Source of the DNA: Candidatus Faecousia faecigallinarum
GTDB lineage: Bacteria > Bacillota > Clostridia > Oscillospirales > Oscillospiraceae
Direction: 5' to 3'
DNA: 37,220 nt
NCBI GenBank assembly: GCA_018712145.1
Contig: DVHJ01000053.1
Coordinates: 1-37,220 of the forward strand
Every line of letters begins with the position of its first letter. Position 1 is the first letter of the stretch. The position numbers were made by a program, and so were the translations under genes. Below the pieces are notes generated by a model. The model had not been told where the DNA came from, made no database searches, and worked only from the letters and a program-made list of their open reading frames with translations. Below, one piece after another: positions 10,259 to 17,462 of this stretch.

Positions 10259-10300
10259 CATGTCATTGCGAGGAGCGCAGCGACGTGGCAATCCGCGTCC
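10259..10300 (-). repeat. B-type palindromic repeat, reverse orientation
   Basis: tgtcattgcgaggagcgcagcgacgtggcaatccgcgtcc. Confidence 0.9.
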
Positions 10301-10358
10301 CCTGGCTGAGACGTAGTACATTGCACCACTGCCCGGCCGCGCGCACACCTACCAAACT

Positions 10359-10542
10359 TGTCATTGCGAACCAGTGCGCACACTGGTGCGGCAATCCGCG
10401 TCCCCGCAGGGAAAGCTAACAAGTTGGCAATACTTTGGGCAAATCCGCAGCATCTCTCGTATTCGCCCAAAGTATTCCCTTTCGCCATGTCCTGCCGCAG
10501 GGTTACGGATTGCCACGTCGCTCCGCTCCTCGCAATGACAAT
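10359..10542 (+). repeat. Composite repeat unit 1: A hairpin (10359-10410), C hairpin (~10434-10468), B (10505-10542)
   Basis: tgtcattgcgaaccagtgcgcacactggtgcggcaatccgcgtccccgcag ... tttgggcaaatccgcagcatctctcgtattcgcccaaag ... cggattgccacgtcgctccgctcctcgcaatgaca. Confidence 0.9.
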
Positions 10543-10638
10543 GGGGGGACGTCCTTGCACCCGCCGGCACGCTCCCGCGTTCCGCACACCTTGCGCGCCA
10601 AACGGCCTTGCACCCGCGAACACGTACCCGTCTTCTGC

Positions 10639-10824
10639 ATGTCATTGCGAACCAGTGCGCACACTGGTGTGGCAATCCGCATCCCCGCAGAGATACTTGA
10701 CAAGTTGGCTGCCGTTGGGGCAAATCCGCAGCACCTCTCGTATTCGCCCAAAGTATTCCCTTTCGTCATGTACTGCCGCAGGGGATGCGGATTGTCCCGT
10801 CGCTTCGCTCCTCGCAATGACATG
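10639..10824 (+). repeat. Composite repeat unit 2: A (10639-10689), C (~10722-10752), B (10785-10824)
   Basis: Same order and spacing as unit 1; A-to-A distance 281 bp. Confidence 0.9.
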
Positions 10825-10970
10825 CTGAAACTTGCTGCGTGTCTACGGGTGCAACTGCGTGGTGCCATGGCAAATTTGTTACGCCTTACGAATTCACCCT
10901 AAGTGCTGTTCTCTGTTATGCCCTGCCGCCACGGTACATTCTGCAATCCAGGCCGGGCGGAAAAAAGGGG

Positions 10971-11037: not shown

Positions 11038-11114
11038 GGGCCTTTAGCTCAGTTGGTTAGAGCCTCCGGCTCATAACCGGATCGTCCCGGGTTCGAATCC
11101 CTGAAGGCCCACCA
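11038..11114 (+). tRNA. tRNA-Met (CAT anticodon), CCA encoded
   Basis: GGGCCTT/AAGGCCC acceptor, GCTC..GAGC D-stem, TCCGG CTCATAA CCGGA anticodon arm, TTCGAAT T-loop, ACCA end. One C/T mismatch in the T-stem. Confidence 0.93.
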
Positions 11115-11149
11115 TCAACTCAGCTTATGCTTTTTTATAGATTGCAGAT

Positions 11150-11225
<76 letters not shown>

Positions 11226-11338: not shown

Positions 11339-11488
11339 TCAACTTGGAAGTAAAATCATGATGAGGTAGTTGGTGATGCTATGGATACCCACGCTCGTCT
11401 CCCGGGTATGCCTGACGCCCAGCCAGAAATCCGCAGCGATCCAGATGCTTAAAGCCATGAGCCATGACAACGAAACATTGGAAATCAT
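11339..11488 (-). CDS. Small hydrophobic ORF (49 aa), possible membrane-protein fragment
   Basis: MISNVSLSWLMALSIWIAADFWLGVRHTRETSVGIHSITNYLIMILLPS*; not in the provided track; no clear RBS; ATG lies in a hairpin. Confidence 0.3.
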   Translation of the reverse strand: MISNVSLSWLMALSIWIAADFWLGVRHTRETSVGIHSITNYLIMILLPS

Positions 11489-11516
11489 GCCGGACTGACG
11501 CCTGTCAGCCCGGCAT
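11487..11516. terminator. Hairpin ATGCCGGaCTGAC-gcct-GTCAGcCCGGCAT between opposing ends
   Basis: 13-bp inverted repeat with one mismatch immediately downstream of the 11532 stop on the minus strand; weak T-tract. Confidence 0.5.
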
Positions 11517-11531
11517 TTGTCTGCCCGGGGA

Positions 11532-12226
11532 TTATTCGGTGAACTGCATATTGGGAAACAGGCGGGTCATGGTCTCATCGCCGTAGGTATCGTCCAGCCA
11601 TTGGGCAACAGGATTGTGGGCAGGCTCTCCTGCCGCCCGTGTTCTCCACCGGGTAATCGCGGCGGAAGTGACCAGCAAGTTCACTGCCATAAAGACCGTC
11701 ATTGCCACACAGGCAATCCGCCAACCCGTTCCCTTCATCTTTTCCAACAGGCGGCTGATCCAGGGGAAGGCAAACCGCATAAACACAATACCCAGCACCC
11801 CCCACATGAACGCCATTTTCAGGCTGACCCGGCCGCCCAGGTTCAACATGTGTTCACTGTAATCCCAGGAAACAGAACCGAAGCACAGTTCCTGGAACAG
11901 GCTGCCAAAATATTCTACGGCGGCGCCGTATACGGTAAACACCCCGAATTGCACCAGCAGATTTTTGCTTTTCAGCACCACCGACAGCAAATACACCGCC
12001 ACGGCGCCAATGCCATAGATCAGGCAGAATGGCCCCCAGACCGTAGCGGAGTGATGCTCCCAATGCCCCTTGCATAAGACGCACACAGGCCCTCCAGCAC
12101 AAAACCGGCCACACTGCCCAGCATAAACAGCCAAAATAATGTGGAATACCGGATCGGATACGAAACGCCCCGCTGTTTCGGGGAAGACAGAAGCGTCCGG
12201 CGCAAACAAGTCATGACAGCATCCAT
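11532..12226 (-). pseudogene. Putative ABC-transporter type IV (PF06541-like) membrane protein, frameshifted near 12084
   Basis: Frame 1 MDAVMTCLRRTLLSSPKQRGVSYPIRYSTLFWLFMLGSVAGFVLEGL-, frame 2 -CVLCKGHWEHHSATVWGPFCLIYGIGAVAVYLLS...; the GHWEHHSATVWGPF motif continues only after a -1-base shift. Confidence 0.7.
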
Positions 12227-13561
12227 CTTTTTGTCCTCTTTCTCATTGCAGTTTGCCGTCCAGCCAGTTGGTGGGGGGGCTGGCAAATCGGGCCGGTCTG
12301 CGGCGGGAATGCATTTGTCCGTCAGTTCTTCCACATCTTCAGGGTTTTGCAGATCGGTGGAGTGGGCGCCGGAGGCCTTGACCATTTTTGCCAGTGCCCC
12401 CTGATTGTCCAGCAGCGGACAGGGGCGCAGCAGGTTATCCGAGAATGGCTGGTTGTCGTGGTAGGCCATGAACAGGGGTGAGCGCAATCCCTCCAGCAGT
12501 GTTTTTTCCCGGATGCTGGAATCGGAGTAGTGGATGAACGCGCAGGGGTCCATGTCGCCGTTGGCGTTGATGTGCAGGTAGCGCCGTCCACCGGCAATAC
12601 AGCCGCCGGCATATTCCCCATCATTCCAGAAGTCCATGGTAAAAATGGGCTTCGTTTCCCGGAATTTCCGCACCTGCTGATACATGAATTTCCGCTGCTC
12701 GGCGGAAACCATCAGCTCCGGTACGGCGTCTTTGCCCACCGGCATGTAGGTAAACAGCCAGCAGAACTTGGCACCCCACTGGATCATCTGGTCGAAGTAT
12801 TCCTCGCTGCCGATGACCTGGGTATTTTGACTGGTGTAGCAGCAGGAAAGGCCAAAGGGCAGACGCTTCTCCCGCAAGATGGCCATGGCCTGTTCGATGC
12901 GGCGGAAAGTCCCTGCGCCACGGCGGAAGTCGGTGGAGGCCTCAAAGCCTTCCACACTGATGGCGGGGATAAAGTTTTTCACCCGCAGCATGTCGCCGGC
13001 AAACGCTTCGTCGATGAGGGTGGCGTTGGTAAAGGCGGTGAATTGACAGTCGGGATGGGCCTGGCACAGTTGGATAATGTCTTTCTTGCGAACCAGGGGT
13101 TCGCCGCCGGTAAACAGGAAGAAATAGCAGCCAAGCTCGTTGGCCTGATTCACGATGCTGTCCATTTCTGCGTAGCTCAGGTTCAGCTTGTTGCCGTACT
13201 CTGCCGCCCAGCAGCCGGTGCAATGGAGGTTGCAGGCCGAGGTGGGATCCATCAGAATGGCCCAGGGGATGTTGCAGCCGTACTTTTCCCGGTTCTTTTC
13301 CTGCTCGGCATAACCAAACAGCGTGGCGTTCAAACCAAAATTGCGGAAAGTTGCCTTTAATATGTCGTTGTCGATATCCCGCCACAACCCCATCAGGTAG
13401 CGGTGCCACACATTGTCGGGGTTGTCCAGGATTTTGCGGAAAACCTCGGTCTGGCTTTTATCCCACCCGAGCCCCTCAATCAAACCGAGGAGCTTTGGCA
13501 GGTTTTTTTCCGGGTCGCCGGAGATGTAGTCCATGGCAGTGGATAGGGCCGCTCTGGTCAA
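12020..13561 (-). CDS. Radical SAM protein with SPASM-like C-terminal region; ORF runs without a stop into the first TM of the PF06541-like domain
   Basis: DPTSACNLHCTGCWAAEYGNKL (CxxxCxxC), FLFTGGEPLVRK, CIAGGRRYLHINANGDMDPCAFIHYSDSSIREKTLLEGLRSPL, CPLLDN. Start here is TTG; an ATG with RBS at 13579 is separated from it by an in-frame TAA. Confidence 0.8.
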   Translation of the reverse strand: MTRAALSTAMDYISGDPEKNLPKLLGLIEGLGWDKSQTEVFRKILDNPDNVWHRYLMGLWRDIDNDILKATFRNFGLNATLFGYAEQEKNREKYGCNIPWAILMDPTSACNLHCTGCWAAEYGNKLNLSYAEMDSIVNQANELGCYFFLFTGGEPLVRKKDIIQLCQAHPDCQFTAFTNATLIDEAFAGDMLRVKNFIPAISVEGFEASTDFRRGAGTFRRIEQAMAILREKRLPFGLSCCYTSQNTQVIGSEEYFDQMIQWGAKFCWLFTYMPVGKDAVPELMVSAEQRKFMYQQVRKFRETKPIFTMDFWNDGEYAGGCIAGGRRYLHINANGDMDPCAFIHYSDSSIREKTLLEGLRSPLFMAYHDNQPFSDNLLRPCPLLDNQGALAKMVKASGAHSTDLQNPEDVEELTDKCIPAADRPDLPAPPPTGWTANCNEKEDKKMDAVMTCLRRTLLSSPKQRGVSYPIRYSTLFWLFMLGSVAGFVLEGLCASYARGIGSITPLRSGGHSA

Positions 13562-13594
13562 AGATTATTTGATACGCATTGAGAAATATCCTTT

Positions 13595-13710
13595 CTAACT
13601 TAAGTTTATGTGATAGCAGTTACAAAAGCTGAAGGTTTGTTTTTGCTGCAAAAGGGATACACCGCAATTCCTGCAAAATACGGAAATGCCGGTTTGCGCT
13701 CAGTGGGCAT
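13595..13710 (-). pseudogene. Candidate zinc-ribbon microprotein, frameshifted at an A4/T4 run (13675-13678)
   Basis: AAGGAGG (13725-13719) 8 nt before ATG 13710; MPTERKPAFPYF in frame 0, then CRNCGVSLLQQKQTFSFCNCYHINLS* in the frame reached by restoring one base. Frame 0 alone gives a 34-aa ORF 13606-13710. Confidence 0.5.
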
Positions 13711-13830
13711 TGCATCTACCTCCTTGTGTTGATGTATGCATTTTATTTTGCCTGTGTTTGGGAATTGATGGCGAATTGTTTACAAGATATGAAAAACGCA
13801 TTTTTCTTGTTTTTTTGCCGGCGATTGTAG

Positions 13831-13879
13831 AAAAAGCCATCGCCGCCTGCCTGGGCGGTGCCCAGACAGGCGGCGATGG
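13831..13879 (-). terminator. Strong intrinsic terminator for the two-component/membrane-protein operon
   Basis: Minus strand CCATCGCCGCCTGTCTGGGC-acc-GCCCAGGCAGGCGGCGATGG followed by cTTTTT. Confidence 0.85.
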
Positions 13880-13883
13880 TGAC

Positions 13884-13943
13884 TTATGGCAGCACGGCCT
13901 TATAGCCCAGGCCATGCACCGTTATAATTCTGTCCAGTCTGTT
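13884..13943 (-). pseudogene. C-terminal relic of an OmpR-family response regulator
   Basis: Minus strand reads NRLDRIITVHGLGYKAVLP*, matching the C-terminus of the intact regulator at 16376 (FEIVTVHGLGYKAVLK*). Confidence 0.75.
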
Positions 13944-13946
13944 TCA

Positions 13947-14375
13947 TTACTCCGGTGCTGAGAGATCTTCTATCAGCTTTAAAATCTGCGGCGCCAGCTT
14001 TTCCCGTTCCTTTCTGGTGATCTTAGTATATAGCGGATAGGCTGCAGCCACAGCTGCAATTCCAATGATTCCGATAATCACGCCGGGAATAAACCAATTT
14101 TCCATCCAAACCATGGTACAGCACATGCCGATCCCCAAAAGCAGACAACCAATGACGCCCACGGCGATAGATACAATGGTACTCTTTTTGGTGGTACTTT
14201 GATCCAGCTTTCTCAGCTGTTCCATTTTATCTTGGGCCTTTGGCAGGTATTTTTGCCGGATGCGCTGGATTTCCTCCTGCTGTTTGGCTGAGTAGGTATA
14301 ATTGAAGATGTCTTTCCTGTTTTCCACAACCAATCTTCCTTTCTGATGAACGGGATATGCATAGTCTAGTTGCAA
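13947..14375 (-). CDS. Small two-TM membrane protein of unknown function
   Basis: FNYTYSAKQQEEIQRIRQKYLPKAQDKMEQLRKLDQSTTKK + IVSIAVGVIGCLLLGIGMCCTMVW + FIPGVIIGIIGIAAVAAAYPLYTKITRKEREKLAP; start may be internal. Confidence 0.75.
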   Translation of the reverse strand: MQLDYAYPVHQKGRLVVENRKDIFNYTYSAKQQEEIQRIRQKYLPKAQDKMEQLRKLDQSTTKKSTIVSIAVGVIGCLLLGIGMCCTMVWMENWFIPGVIIGIIGIAAVAAAYPLYTKITRKEREKLAPQILKLIEDLSAPE

Positions 14376-15301
14376 TGAGAAGAATCAAATTTTGATTCGG
14401 AATGATGATGTTTTAACTGCCTTAGCTGTTTTGTGGAATGGACGATCATATAAATCGCCATGGCCAAGATAATGATGCAGACAACGCCTCCGGAGGCCCC
14501 CAGCATGATGCGGCGGAACTCAGGCTCATCCCTGCCAAATTGGGCAAGCATGGCCGTTTCCAGGGAGAGCATGGAGACCAGAGCTGCGGTCAGACTGATT
14601 ACCTTGGCTGCCGACAGCACAGGGTTGCCCCGCTTTCGGAACCTGATGACGTTGATCACCGCGGTGATGGTGATATAGAAGGTATAAAATGCCATGGCGT
14701 AGATAAGCACCCCGGGGTAGGAAAAGCCCCGGTTTTGGGTCACCATATACACGACAATGCCCACCAGCGCCTGGTTCATCCACAGCAGGATAATGCCGCA
14801 GACCCGGTAGCGCTGCAGCGCGGACCGCCTGTCCTGGTCAAGGGGCTTTCGGTGGACATACCGGACCAGCACCGCCCGCATGGCTGACAGCAGGGCATAG
14901 TAAAATGCAAGGGCCACAAACCAGGCGGAACGGTATCGGATACCGGAGAACAGGTTTAGCGCAACGTACAACAAGTTGACCAACAGGCCGCCGTGGAGGG
15001 TAATTTCTGAGCGAAAGACAGCGTCGTCAAGAAGACGGTTCCTCAAGGGCGTGCTGTGGATTTTTTGGACCAGGGGAAGTCCGCCGATTCCATTGCGTGC
15101 CGCTTTAACGACGCCGGATATCCCGGTTGCGGTGATCACCAATGCGTAGGCGGATAGAATATACGACAAATAGGATAAAATGGAATGTTCGCCAGTGCCA
15201 AGCATAACAAACACGAAAATGAACGATGGCACAGCAATGAGCAAGGTGGGCAGGGGAGGAAGAAAAAATATTTTTTTCAACACTGCGTTAAGGCGTTCCA
15301 T
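14366..15301 (-). CDS. Polytopic membrane protein of unknown function co-transcribed with a histidine kinase
   Basis: About eight hydrophobic segments; overlaps the kinase 3' end by 14 bp and the downstream gene by 10 bp. Confidence 0.75.
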   Translation of the reverse strand: MERLNAVLKKIFFLPPLPTLLIAVPSFIFVFVMLGTGEHSILSYLSYILSAYALVITATGISGVVKAARNGIGGLPLVQKIHSTPLRNRLLDDAVFRSEITLHGGLLVNLLYVALNLFSGIRYRSAWFVALAFYYALLSAMRAVLVRYVHRKPLDQDRRSALQRYRVCGIILLWMNQALVGIVVYMVTQNRGFSYPGVLIYAMAFYTFYITITAVINVIRFRKRGNPVLSAAKVISLTAALVSMLSLETAMLAQFGRDEPEFRRIMLGASGGVVCIIILAMAIYMIVHSTKQLRQLKHHHSESKFDSSHCN

Positions 15302-16379
15302 ACGGCTCCCTCCTGAGCTTTACGGTAAATATGCTGCCCTTTCCCACCTCGCTGCTGACGGAGATATCCCCGCCCACAATGTCTATGACCCGCTTAACCA
15401 GCGCCAGTCCCAGACCGTTGCCCTGGGTGGCGTGGGAGGTATCCCCCTGATAAAACTTTTCAAACATGTGTTTACCAACCTCTGGGGAGATTCCGCAGCC
15501 GGTGTCCGACACCTGCACCACAGCAAACTCTCCTTCTGCTTTCAGGGTGAGGGAAATTTTGCCGCGGGGCGGGGTAAATTTGATGGCATTGGAAAACAGG
15601 TTGTTCCAGACAAGAGACAGAAGCTCCTCATCGCTATTTACCATAACTTCCGCTTCTACATCGGTTTCAATGTCCAGGGCCTTGTCTTCCCATGCGCGCT
15701 CGAAGGTAAGCAGGCATTCGCACAACTGCTCACCCAAGTCATAGGTCTCCGCCTTGGGATAAATCTGCTGGTTTTCCAGCTTATTGAGTTTTAGGATGTT
15801 GGTAATCAGATTAGCCAGCCGGCGGGAAGCGTCTGTAATTGCCTTGGCGTATTCCAGCCGCTTGTTTTCCGGCAAATCCTGCTGCTGGAGCATGGTGCCG
15901 TAGTTCTGGATCACCGCCAGCGGCGTTTTCAATTCGTGAGATACGTTGGCGATAAAGTCAGTCCGCAGGGTTTCCGTGCCGGACAGCTCCTGGGCCATTT
16001 GATTGAAGTAATCGGCAATCACCCCGAACCCGTCGGCGTTGGCAATCCCATGCAGGGGCGGGATTCTCACCGAAAAATCGCCCGTCATCATTTGCTCCGC
16101 CGCCTTGATGATTTGCCCCACAGGCCGGCCTACCATAAACTTGCGCCGGATTTCATCAACGATGGTACACAAAAAACTCAATAAAATTACATTTAAAAAG
16201 GTTACCTTGGCGGCCCGCTCAATATGTTCCTGCGTCAGCTCCAGATTTGCCGATCTGGTCATCATATTGAGAAACAGGATCATACAACAGCTGATGATAA
16301 AGGCCATCAGTAGGAAAAAAGTAATATACCGCCGGAGGGCGAACAGCCATCGGATGTTTTTTTTATCCTGCCCGCTCAT
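15288..16379 (-). CDS. Sensor histidine kinase (HAMP-HisKA-HATPase)
   Basis: FIANVSHELKTPLAVIQNYG H-box; NLFSNAIKFT N-box; VSDTGCGI, GNGLGLALVKRVI G-boxes. Confidence 0.95.
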   Translation of the reverse strand: MSGQDKKNIRWLFALRRYITFFLLMAFIISCCMILFLNMMTRSANLELTQEHIERAAKVTFLNVILLSFLCTIVDEIRRKFMVGRPVGQIIKAAEQMMTGDFSVRIPPLHGIANADGFGVIADYFNQMAQELSGTETLRTDFIANVSHELKTPLAVIQNYGTMLQQQDLPENKRLEYAKAITDASRRLANLITNILKLNKLENQQIYPKAETYDLGEQLCECLLTFERAWEDKALDIETDVEAEVMVNSDEELLSLVWNNLFSNAIKFTPPRGKISLTLKAEGEFAVVQVSDTGCGISPEVGKHMFEKFYQGDTSHATQGNGLGLALVKRVIDIVGGDISVSSEVGKGSIFTVKLRREPYGTP

Positions 16380-17050
16380 TTCAGTACCGCCTTATACCCC
16401 AATCCATGCACGGTCACAATCTCAAAATCCGAACAGTCCGAAAATTTATCCCGCAGCTTTGTCATATACACATCCACCGTCCTGGGGCCGGCGGAAGAGG
16501 CGCTGTCCCAAAACTCATCCATGAGCTGGGAGCGGGTGAAGGCTTTTTTCGGATAGGACAAAAGTTTGTAAATCAAGTTGAATTCCCGTACCGTCAGGGC
16601 AATTTCTTTTCCATTGAGATAGGCAGTGCGCTCTTCCGCATCCAGCGTCAGGCTGCCAACCGTCAGCTTTTTGCTGGTGGCAATTTTGGCCCGGCGCAGC
16701 AGTGCCTCGATCCGGAGCAGCAGCTCGTCCAGATCAATGGGCTTGACCATGTAGTCGTCAATGCCCATTTTGAAGCCCCGCTGTTTTGCGGCAAAATCAT
16801 CCCGGGCGGTCATAAACAAAATGGGGATTTCCTGATTGAACTCCCGCACGGTTTTTGCAAATTCGAACCCATCTATTTCTGGCATCATAATATCAGAGAT
16901 AATCATGTCAAACAAAGTGCCGCCGTACATAGCGTCATAGGCCTCACCGGCGCTCAGGCATCCTTCTGCGGCATAACCATTTTGCTTTAAATGGGAACAT
17001 ACGGTTTTATTCAATTCCCGGTCGTCTTCCACGACCAATAGTTTAAACAT
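16376..17050 (-). CDS. OmpR-family response regulator
   Basis: MFKLLVVEDDRELNKTVCSHL...DMIISDIMMPEIDG...FMTARDD..MVKPIDLDELLLRI; C-terminal winged helix TVDVYMTKLRDKF..VTVHGLGYKAVLK. ATG at 17050. Confidence 0.95.
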   Translation of the reverse strand: MFKLLVVEDDRELNKTVCSHLKQNGYAAEGCLSAGEAYDAMYGGTLFDMIISDIMMPEIDGFEFAKTVREFNQEIPILFMTARDDFAAKQRGFKMGIDDYMVKPIDLDELLLRIEALLRRAKIATSKKLTVGSLTLDAEERTAYLNGKEIALTVREFNLIYKLLSYPKKAFTRSQLMDEFWDSASSAGPRTVDVYMTKLRDKFSDCSDFEIVTVHGLGYKAVLK

Positions 17051-17279
17051 AAATTCCGCCTCCTCCGGTTTGTTGTCTGGATTGTACCACGGATATGTTA
17101 AAGTTTTGTTTGTATACGGGGCGTTTGCGAATTTTTTTGCCTGTTCTTGCACCCTTGGATGCGCAGAAGCGTTCCCGCTTTCTGCCTGTCATTGCGGCCC
17201 AGTGGGTGGGCCCCGCAAAGGGGCACCCTTTGCGGGGAAGTACGTCCTTGTAACCGCACCTACGCCTCCGTCTTTTGCC

Positions 17280-17462
17280 TGTCATTGCGAACCAGTGCGC
17301 ACACTGGTGTGGCAATCCGCGTCCCCGCAGGAATACCAACAACAAGCAGTGCTTTAGGCGAATTCGAAGTAGTCTACGAATTCGCCCTAAGTTCTATTTT
17401 TTCTTAGCTTTTTCTGCGGGGACGCGGATTGCCCCGTCGCTTCGCTCCTCGCAATGACATGC
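17280..17462 (+). repeat. Composite repeat unit 3: A (17280-17330), C hairpin GGCGAATTCG..CGAATTCGCC (~17357-17387), B (17420-17462)
   Basis: tgtcattgcgaaccagtgcgcacactggtgtggcaatccgcgtccccgcag ... gcggattgccccgtcgcttcgctcctcgcaatgacatg. Confidence 0.9.

Follow-up and report, generated by a model that had tools for sequence, protein, structure and literature searches.

The window, the whole stretch of 37,220 nucleotides analysed here, is contig C18 of a 97-contig, 1.9-Mb genome of a gut-type bacterium, 98% complete. On its minus strand a response regulator (RR), a histidine kinase (HK), a multi-transmembrane protein (MP311) and a small two-transmembrane protein (sm142) follow one another as an operon of four full-length genes, upstream of a lesioned region with a radical SAM gene and a PF06541 membrane protein gene (Table 1). 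The rest of the window holds about 28 ORFs with no evident splits by greedy tiling, in agreement with an earlier judgement by eye that the other major coding regions are clean; the tiling used codon scores rather than orthologue comparison of individual ORFs. G+C content is 0.47-0.58 at 11-17 kb, whereas the left part of the window has about 0.6-0.7. Genes for tRNA-Met and tRNA-Trp, a frequent insertion neighbourhood, lie at 11038-11225, immediately past the 3' end of the cassette. On either side of the probably acquired region, at 10300-10900 and 17153-17400, lie dispersed repeats that contain the words GTCATTGCGAGGAGCGAAGCG / TCATTGCGAACCAGTGCGCACAC, and repeats of this type occur elsewhere in the genome, for example near position 43400 of contig C56.

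Table 1. Features of the two-component operon and of the lesioned region (positions in the window)
Feature	Position	Strand	Basis or remark
RR, OmpR-family response regulator, intact	16376..17152	-	Pfam Response_reg and Trans_reg_C
HK, histidine kinase, intact	15288..16379	-	HAMP, HisKA, HATPase_c
MP311, multi-TM membrane protein, intact	14366..15301	-	kept beside RR/HK in relatives
sm142, small 2-TM membrane protein, intact	13947..14375	-	kept 3' of MP311
3' relic of a second RR gene, ITVHGLGYKAVLP-stop	13884..13930	-	sequence; match to G172
Intrinsic terminator hairpin 3' of the relic	13837..13879	-	20-bp arms, 95% complementary
Proposed RR operator, three 11-bp direct repeats TCTTGTAAACA ATTCGCCATCA ATTCCCAAACA	13755..13787	-	comparison and matrix scores
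-10 box TAAAAT	13740..13745	-	9 nt past last repeat; equal spacing in aligned promoters of other genera
34-codon open frame, AAGGAGG 8 nt upstream	13606..13710	-	overlaps the previously proposed zinc ribbon
Radical SAM (twitch/SPASM-type) gene	12280..13579	-	Pfam Radical_SAM 1e-14; alignments; AF2 pLDDT 91
PF06541 membrane protein gene, one-base deletion near 12086-12084	11532..12226	-	Pfam; alignment to G172 and G352

The sensor-regulator core is well conserved. The RR carries both domains of the OmpR family and is 86-87% identical to its counterparts in four other genomes (G172, G291, G176 and G197), where, as in others, MP311 is kept adjoining the RR and HK genes. The kinase is 77-78% identical to the relatives' kinases and has two predicted transmembrane helices separated by a loop of about 20 residues, a topology assigned by eye from the sequence. 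A Pfam search with MP311 returned no match, and sm142 gave sub-threshold matches only. In G172 the locus is collinear and intact (protein identity 86% for RR, 77% for HK, 77% for MP311, 65% for sm142 and about 70-73% for PF06541; DNA identity 75% for the four-gene set and 73% for PF06541), with no radical SAM gene between sm142 and PF06541 and its radical SAM copy on another contig. Either the window gained this gene or G172 lost it.

Directly behind sm142 lies the end of what was once a second RR gene. This tail of about 14 codons reads ...RIITVHGLGYKAVLP-stop, where the intact RR ends EIVTVHGLGYKAVLK, and a 35-bp part aligns at 83% with the 3' end of the RR gene in G172. The inverted repeat that follows runs into a T-run, CTTTTTC. 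The relic, which had been suspected from the sequence at first sight, is real.

Three lesions lie beyond it. In the radical SAM gene, an in-frame TAA (13567-13565) occupies codon 5 from the best-placed start, ATG 13579, just where it had been reported. Relatives have a sense codon at this place, within an N-terminal tail of similar length (for example MKVPNI/IKEMGF and MSFTNQ/LKKATL, with the slash at the position), and the frame is open again from TTG 13561, three bases past the TAA. The C-terminus diverges from the family ending ..W..xADxLW.. and reads in frame through a C7 tract (12279-12273) into PF06541, while in the other frame the stop, CTGCAATGA, falls right before the PF06541 start. 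This abnormal tail is an added lesion that had been overlooked. In the membrane protein gene, the domain announced earlier as PF06541-like and in need of one extra base is certain (2.2e-32; 112.8 bits against a gathering score of 25.9), and comparison with the two orthologues in G172 and G352, 72-73% identical, shows exactly one base missing at about 12086-12084, the reading being otherwise collinear from RYSTLFW to the C-terminus.

The small ORFs of the region fared differently. A zinc-ribbon microprotein said to need one added base would in fact require a shift of -1 or +2. A TGA stands immediately before its second frame, and the joined product finds no Pfam match; we reject it. The 34-codon frame that overlaps it is intact and starts at an ATG with better Shine-Dalgarno spacing, and belongs to no family recognised by Pfam. 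A search near 80 radical SAM loci for small ORFs with two CxxC motifs as a zinc-ribbon partner found unrelated Cys-rich proteins and antisense noise only. Of the suggested trio of zinc ribbon, radical SAM and PF06541 in relatives, the adjacency of the latter two stands (L076 and L090, and L094 with DegV between them) and the zinc-ribbon partner falls away. A hydrophobic orphan ORF described near 11339-11500 is indeed an open frame, with no Pfam match. L076 and L127 share one type of small Cys-rich ORF close to the radical SAM gene, by eye of mobile-element type. On balance the sequence-only reading named the main lesions correctly, erred on the zinc ribbon and was too limited in scope, as it missed the more important unit, the upstream two-component system with its shared promoter signature.

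How real, and how old, are the lesions? They are concentrated in the radical SAM-PF06541 pair, with RR, HK and the two membrane genes next to it full-length, which makes local decay, as against a uniformly bad assembly, a reasonable reading. Were three lesions placed at random over some 30 kb of coding sequence, all three would fall within 2 kb in about 3 cases in 10,000 by our estimate, and this improbability favours true local loss over uniform error, with a local coverage fault as another possible source. The cassette had been called decaying or mis-assembled; the first of these words is too strong. Where an alignment of 94 family members is conserved to 97% or more, the radical SAM protein shows 0 deviations, and pairwise dN/dS for PF06541 is about 0.15 between the window and G172 and between the window and G352, like the 0.20 between the intact orthologues G172 and G352, ratios that are rough since dS exceeds 1. 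Ordinary purifying selection thus acted on both genes until very recently. With conserved columns kept and dN/dS normal, the lesions are either young or consensus errors.

The second of these options, that the operon is intact in the organism and the breaks arose in the consensus of a metagenome-assembled genome of 97 contigs, is a serious one, to which we give a distinctly smaller share of belief than to the main reading given below. It would account for the absence of relaxation in conserved columns and dN/dS, and two of the lesions alter the length of a short tract (C7 and TGTG). However, the TAA is atypical of a length error, the radical SAM tail is divergent past a single base, and the lesions gather in two genes, their neighbours being full-length. 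Alternatively, the radical SAM enzyme might still be made, with the five-codon ATG-TAA minigene serving as a leader and translation restarting at TTG 13561: the frame from the TTG retains every conserved residue, and the TAA falls in the variable N-terminal tail. This is unlikely, as none of the relatives examined has such a leader, the TTG lacks a properly spaced Shine-Dalgarno of its own, and there is damage in the C-terminal tail and in PF06541 as well. Radical SAM genes split between frames are also seen in other members of the genus (L046, L048/L027 and L049/L053, in G150, G015 and G129), and such breaks may be a recurrent feature of the genus or of its assemblies.

The promoter of the radical SAM unit consists of three tandem WTTCNCAAACA repeats, with 9 nt between the last of them and a TANNNT -10 box. 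Its first trace was a 28-bp match, at 93%, between window positions 13781-13754 and a G172 promoter. A matrix built from this pair of sequences together with the PF06541 promoter of G172 found matches outside this sample before PF06541 in G352, an SDR-180aa-rSAM operon in Sporobacter termitidis (L060, a cultured relative with an intact system), radical SAM and ABC genes (L065), a radical SAM gene (L069) and RR genes (L056, L071). In other genera the signature precedes PF06541, small membrane or helical proteins, ABC transporters and radical SAM genes. Leave-one-out scoring with a model of 11 sites gave 35-42 for nine of them and 18-20 for the other two; the window operator scored 41.8, against a maximum of 17 in 0.64 Mb of shuffled sequence from a first-order Markov model. 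Eight radical SAM loci score 18 or more (L055, L056, L060, L063, L065, L069, L071 and L087), and all eight are labelled as two-component-linked in the tree, a concordance that is not independent for L055 and L087, which owe the label to their operator matches.

Loci picked solely by MP311 similarity carry the signature in 11 of 14 cases (10 of 13 outside the training set), mostly before 4TM, helical, MP311 or sm142 genes. In the window's own 1.9-Mb genome, the consensus with at most three mismatches occurs at two places only, and its reversed control at none; the second place, on C56, precedes the genes for a 4TM protein and an 82-residue helical protein. A literature search for the repeat motif with Clostridium found no paper, and the conserved signature so far has no name. 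Proteins made of repeated amphipathic 11-residue units (MAKSKLVAANEKIAEHVVHGYQKIEQGVVDGYKKMEEG...), of no known family, sit with a 4TM gene, an RR gene or a radical SAM gene at L174:10443-10847, L063:7617-7922 and L071:5714-5977.

The radical SAM protein belongs to its superfamily by an invariant CX3CX2C motif (C110/C114/C117) and its PF04055 match. Its C-terminal part has the auxiliary motif of SPASM/twitch enzymes (CX9-15GX4C plus a distal Cys) as conserved C321-X13-G335-X4-C340 and C381; the full seven-Cys SPASM motif is absent, and the enzyme is therefore twitch-like. The AF2 model comes closest to SuiB, SkfB, anSME and viperin. With SuiB, SkfB and anSME, which are among its best structural matches, it shares the CX3CX2C and C-terminal CX13GX4C motifs, and it differs from them in an N-terminal helical domain of its own, modelled as a bundle, and in reaching no named NCBIfam family at its cut-off. 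The family is large, with at least 586 relatives among the 598 pattern matches listed from the genome collection, yet patchy in the window's genus, where 23 of 136 genomes have it. Neighbours at the best 80 loci include TetR (30), DegV (26), two-component genes (15), oleate hydratase (9), patatin (6), CDP-alcohol transferase (6), PF06541 (5) and MMPL (4). At L056, L060, L063, L065, L069 and L071 the radical SAM gene has in its vicinity a relative of the window RR that is 58-77% identical to it.

In the tree, the window gene groups with L055 (Paenibacillus), L056, L060 and L062 at support 98/99; L055, L056 and L060 bear two-component genes or the operator, and the other radical SAM copies of the window's genus are far off. 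This position makes horizontal acquisition of the gene likely, and the lower G+C at 11-17 kb is in line with it. A viral origin was considered and set aside: among eight matches on viral contigs, a single one, at 57% over 311 residues, truly belongs to the family, and the other seven are remote and confined to the core.

Together, these observations indicate a probable LiaFSR-like two-component regulon for membrane stress, with this stretch as its effector end and with a radical SAM-PF06541 pair that appears to have been disabled here very recently, while both genes are intact in relatives; gene order, the promoter signature and its recurrence, the intact two-component core and the lesions, all read from the DNA, carry this reading. 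The short loop of the kinase and the genes around it suggest that HK would sense membrane damage through a short intramembrane sensor. Phosphorylated RR would then bind the three repeats, which would replace the -35 box and allow activation without one, and would turn on 4TM and helical proteins, PF06541, ABC transporters and the radical SAM enzyme, effectors that may protect or modify the membrane. Here the pair directly behind sm142 and the RR relic would have been lesioned recently, with the sensor-regulator core left intact. A bolder proposal, that this is a conserved, apparently undescribed regulon of Oscillospirales and other Bacillota, recognisable by three operator repeats 9 nt before the -10 box, in which an inducible twitch-type radical SAM enzyme modifies a lipid or a small membrane peptide for membrane defence, is offered tentatively, at a little under even confidence.

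LiaFSR, with LiaIH, is an envelope-stress module of Bacillus, and regulons of PhoB/PhoP-type OmpR regulators use 11-bp direct-repeat operators. As in LiaFSR, a short-loop kinase system appears to control a small membrane protein and a helical soluble protein. Unlike LiaR, which is NarL-type, the RR here is OmpR-type; no LiaF was identified, the relatives' helical effector, where LiaFSR has one of the LiaH/PspA family, has no NCBIfam match, and the effectors include a radical SAM enzyme and PF06541, so that the system falls outside LiaFSR proper. The 11-bp direct repeats in place of a -35 box recall the PhoB/PhoP type, but the repeat sequence differs, no phosphate genes were seen, and the RR scores well under the PhoB cut-offs (171 against 270 and 152 against 296 bits). 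PF06541 (ABC_trans_CmpB) proteins are represented by a clear domain match, and in G172 and G352 their gene sits under the two-component promoter signature; our literature search found no paper bearing on PF06541, nor on radical SAM with DegV, TetR or PF06541. The lesions themselves are ordinary. The value lies in a compact regulatory code that links genes of gut bacteria lacking annotation, for 4TM and helical proteins, MP311, sm142, PF06541 and the radical SAM family in one response, gives physiological context to PF06541 and to a radical SAM family of hundreds of members, can be tested genome-wide and makes predictions on binding and induction.

What would the enzyme act on? Lipids and small membrane peptides are the candidates we infer. 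It could be a bacterial membrane-spanning lipid synthase (Mss), joining fatty-acid tails, since lipid genes neighbour the radical SAM family throughout and the distribution of Mss in Clostridia is broadly similar (PMC13274423). Compared through the sequence and structure of Tes/GDGT-MAS (7tol), the protein shows no whole-protein homology to such synthases: 7tol matches the core alone, at 20 bits over about 75 residues, and is not among the 50 best structural matches (SuiB, SkfB, anSME, viperin and similar), which makes this identity very improbable. The lipid-related neighbours (oleate hydratase, DegV, patatin, MMPL) are mostly in other clades of the family, and for this reason may not tell the substrate here. 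A peptide-modifying maturase acting on the 34-codon ORF product or a small helical protein is better matched by fold, the closest structures being the peptide maturases SuiB and SkfB and the peptide-modifying anSME, and small ORFs do occur under the same promoter type. This too is doubtful, as the 34-codon ORF has no recognised family, the N-terminal part is modelled as a helical bundle, and neither Pfam nor NCBIfam finds a leader-binding (RRE) domain.

In one clade (L110, L070, L075, L077, L080, L081, L097 and others) the radical SAM gene stands beside oleate hydratase, MMPL and DUF308, an arrangement suggestive of a lipid role in this clade. At some 14-17 loci (L068, L074, L090, L091, L092, L094, L099, L101, L103, L104, L106, L107, L119 and L122, and L043-L045) a radical SAM paralogue, about 21% identical, lies on the opposite strand upstream of the radical SAM gene. 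The L106 copy has neither CX3CX2C nor a Pfam match, and the paralogue is possibly a catalytically dead partner subunit.
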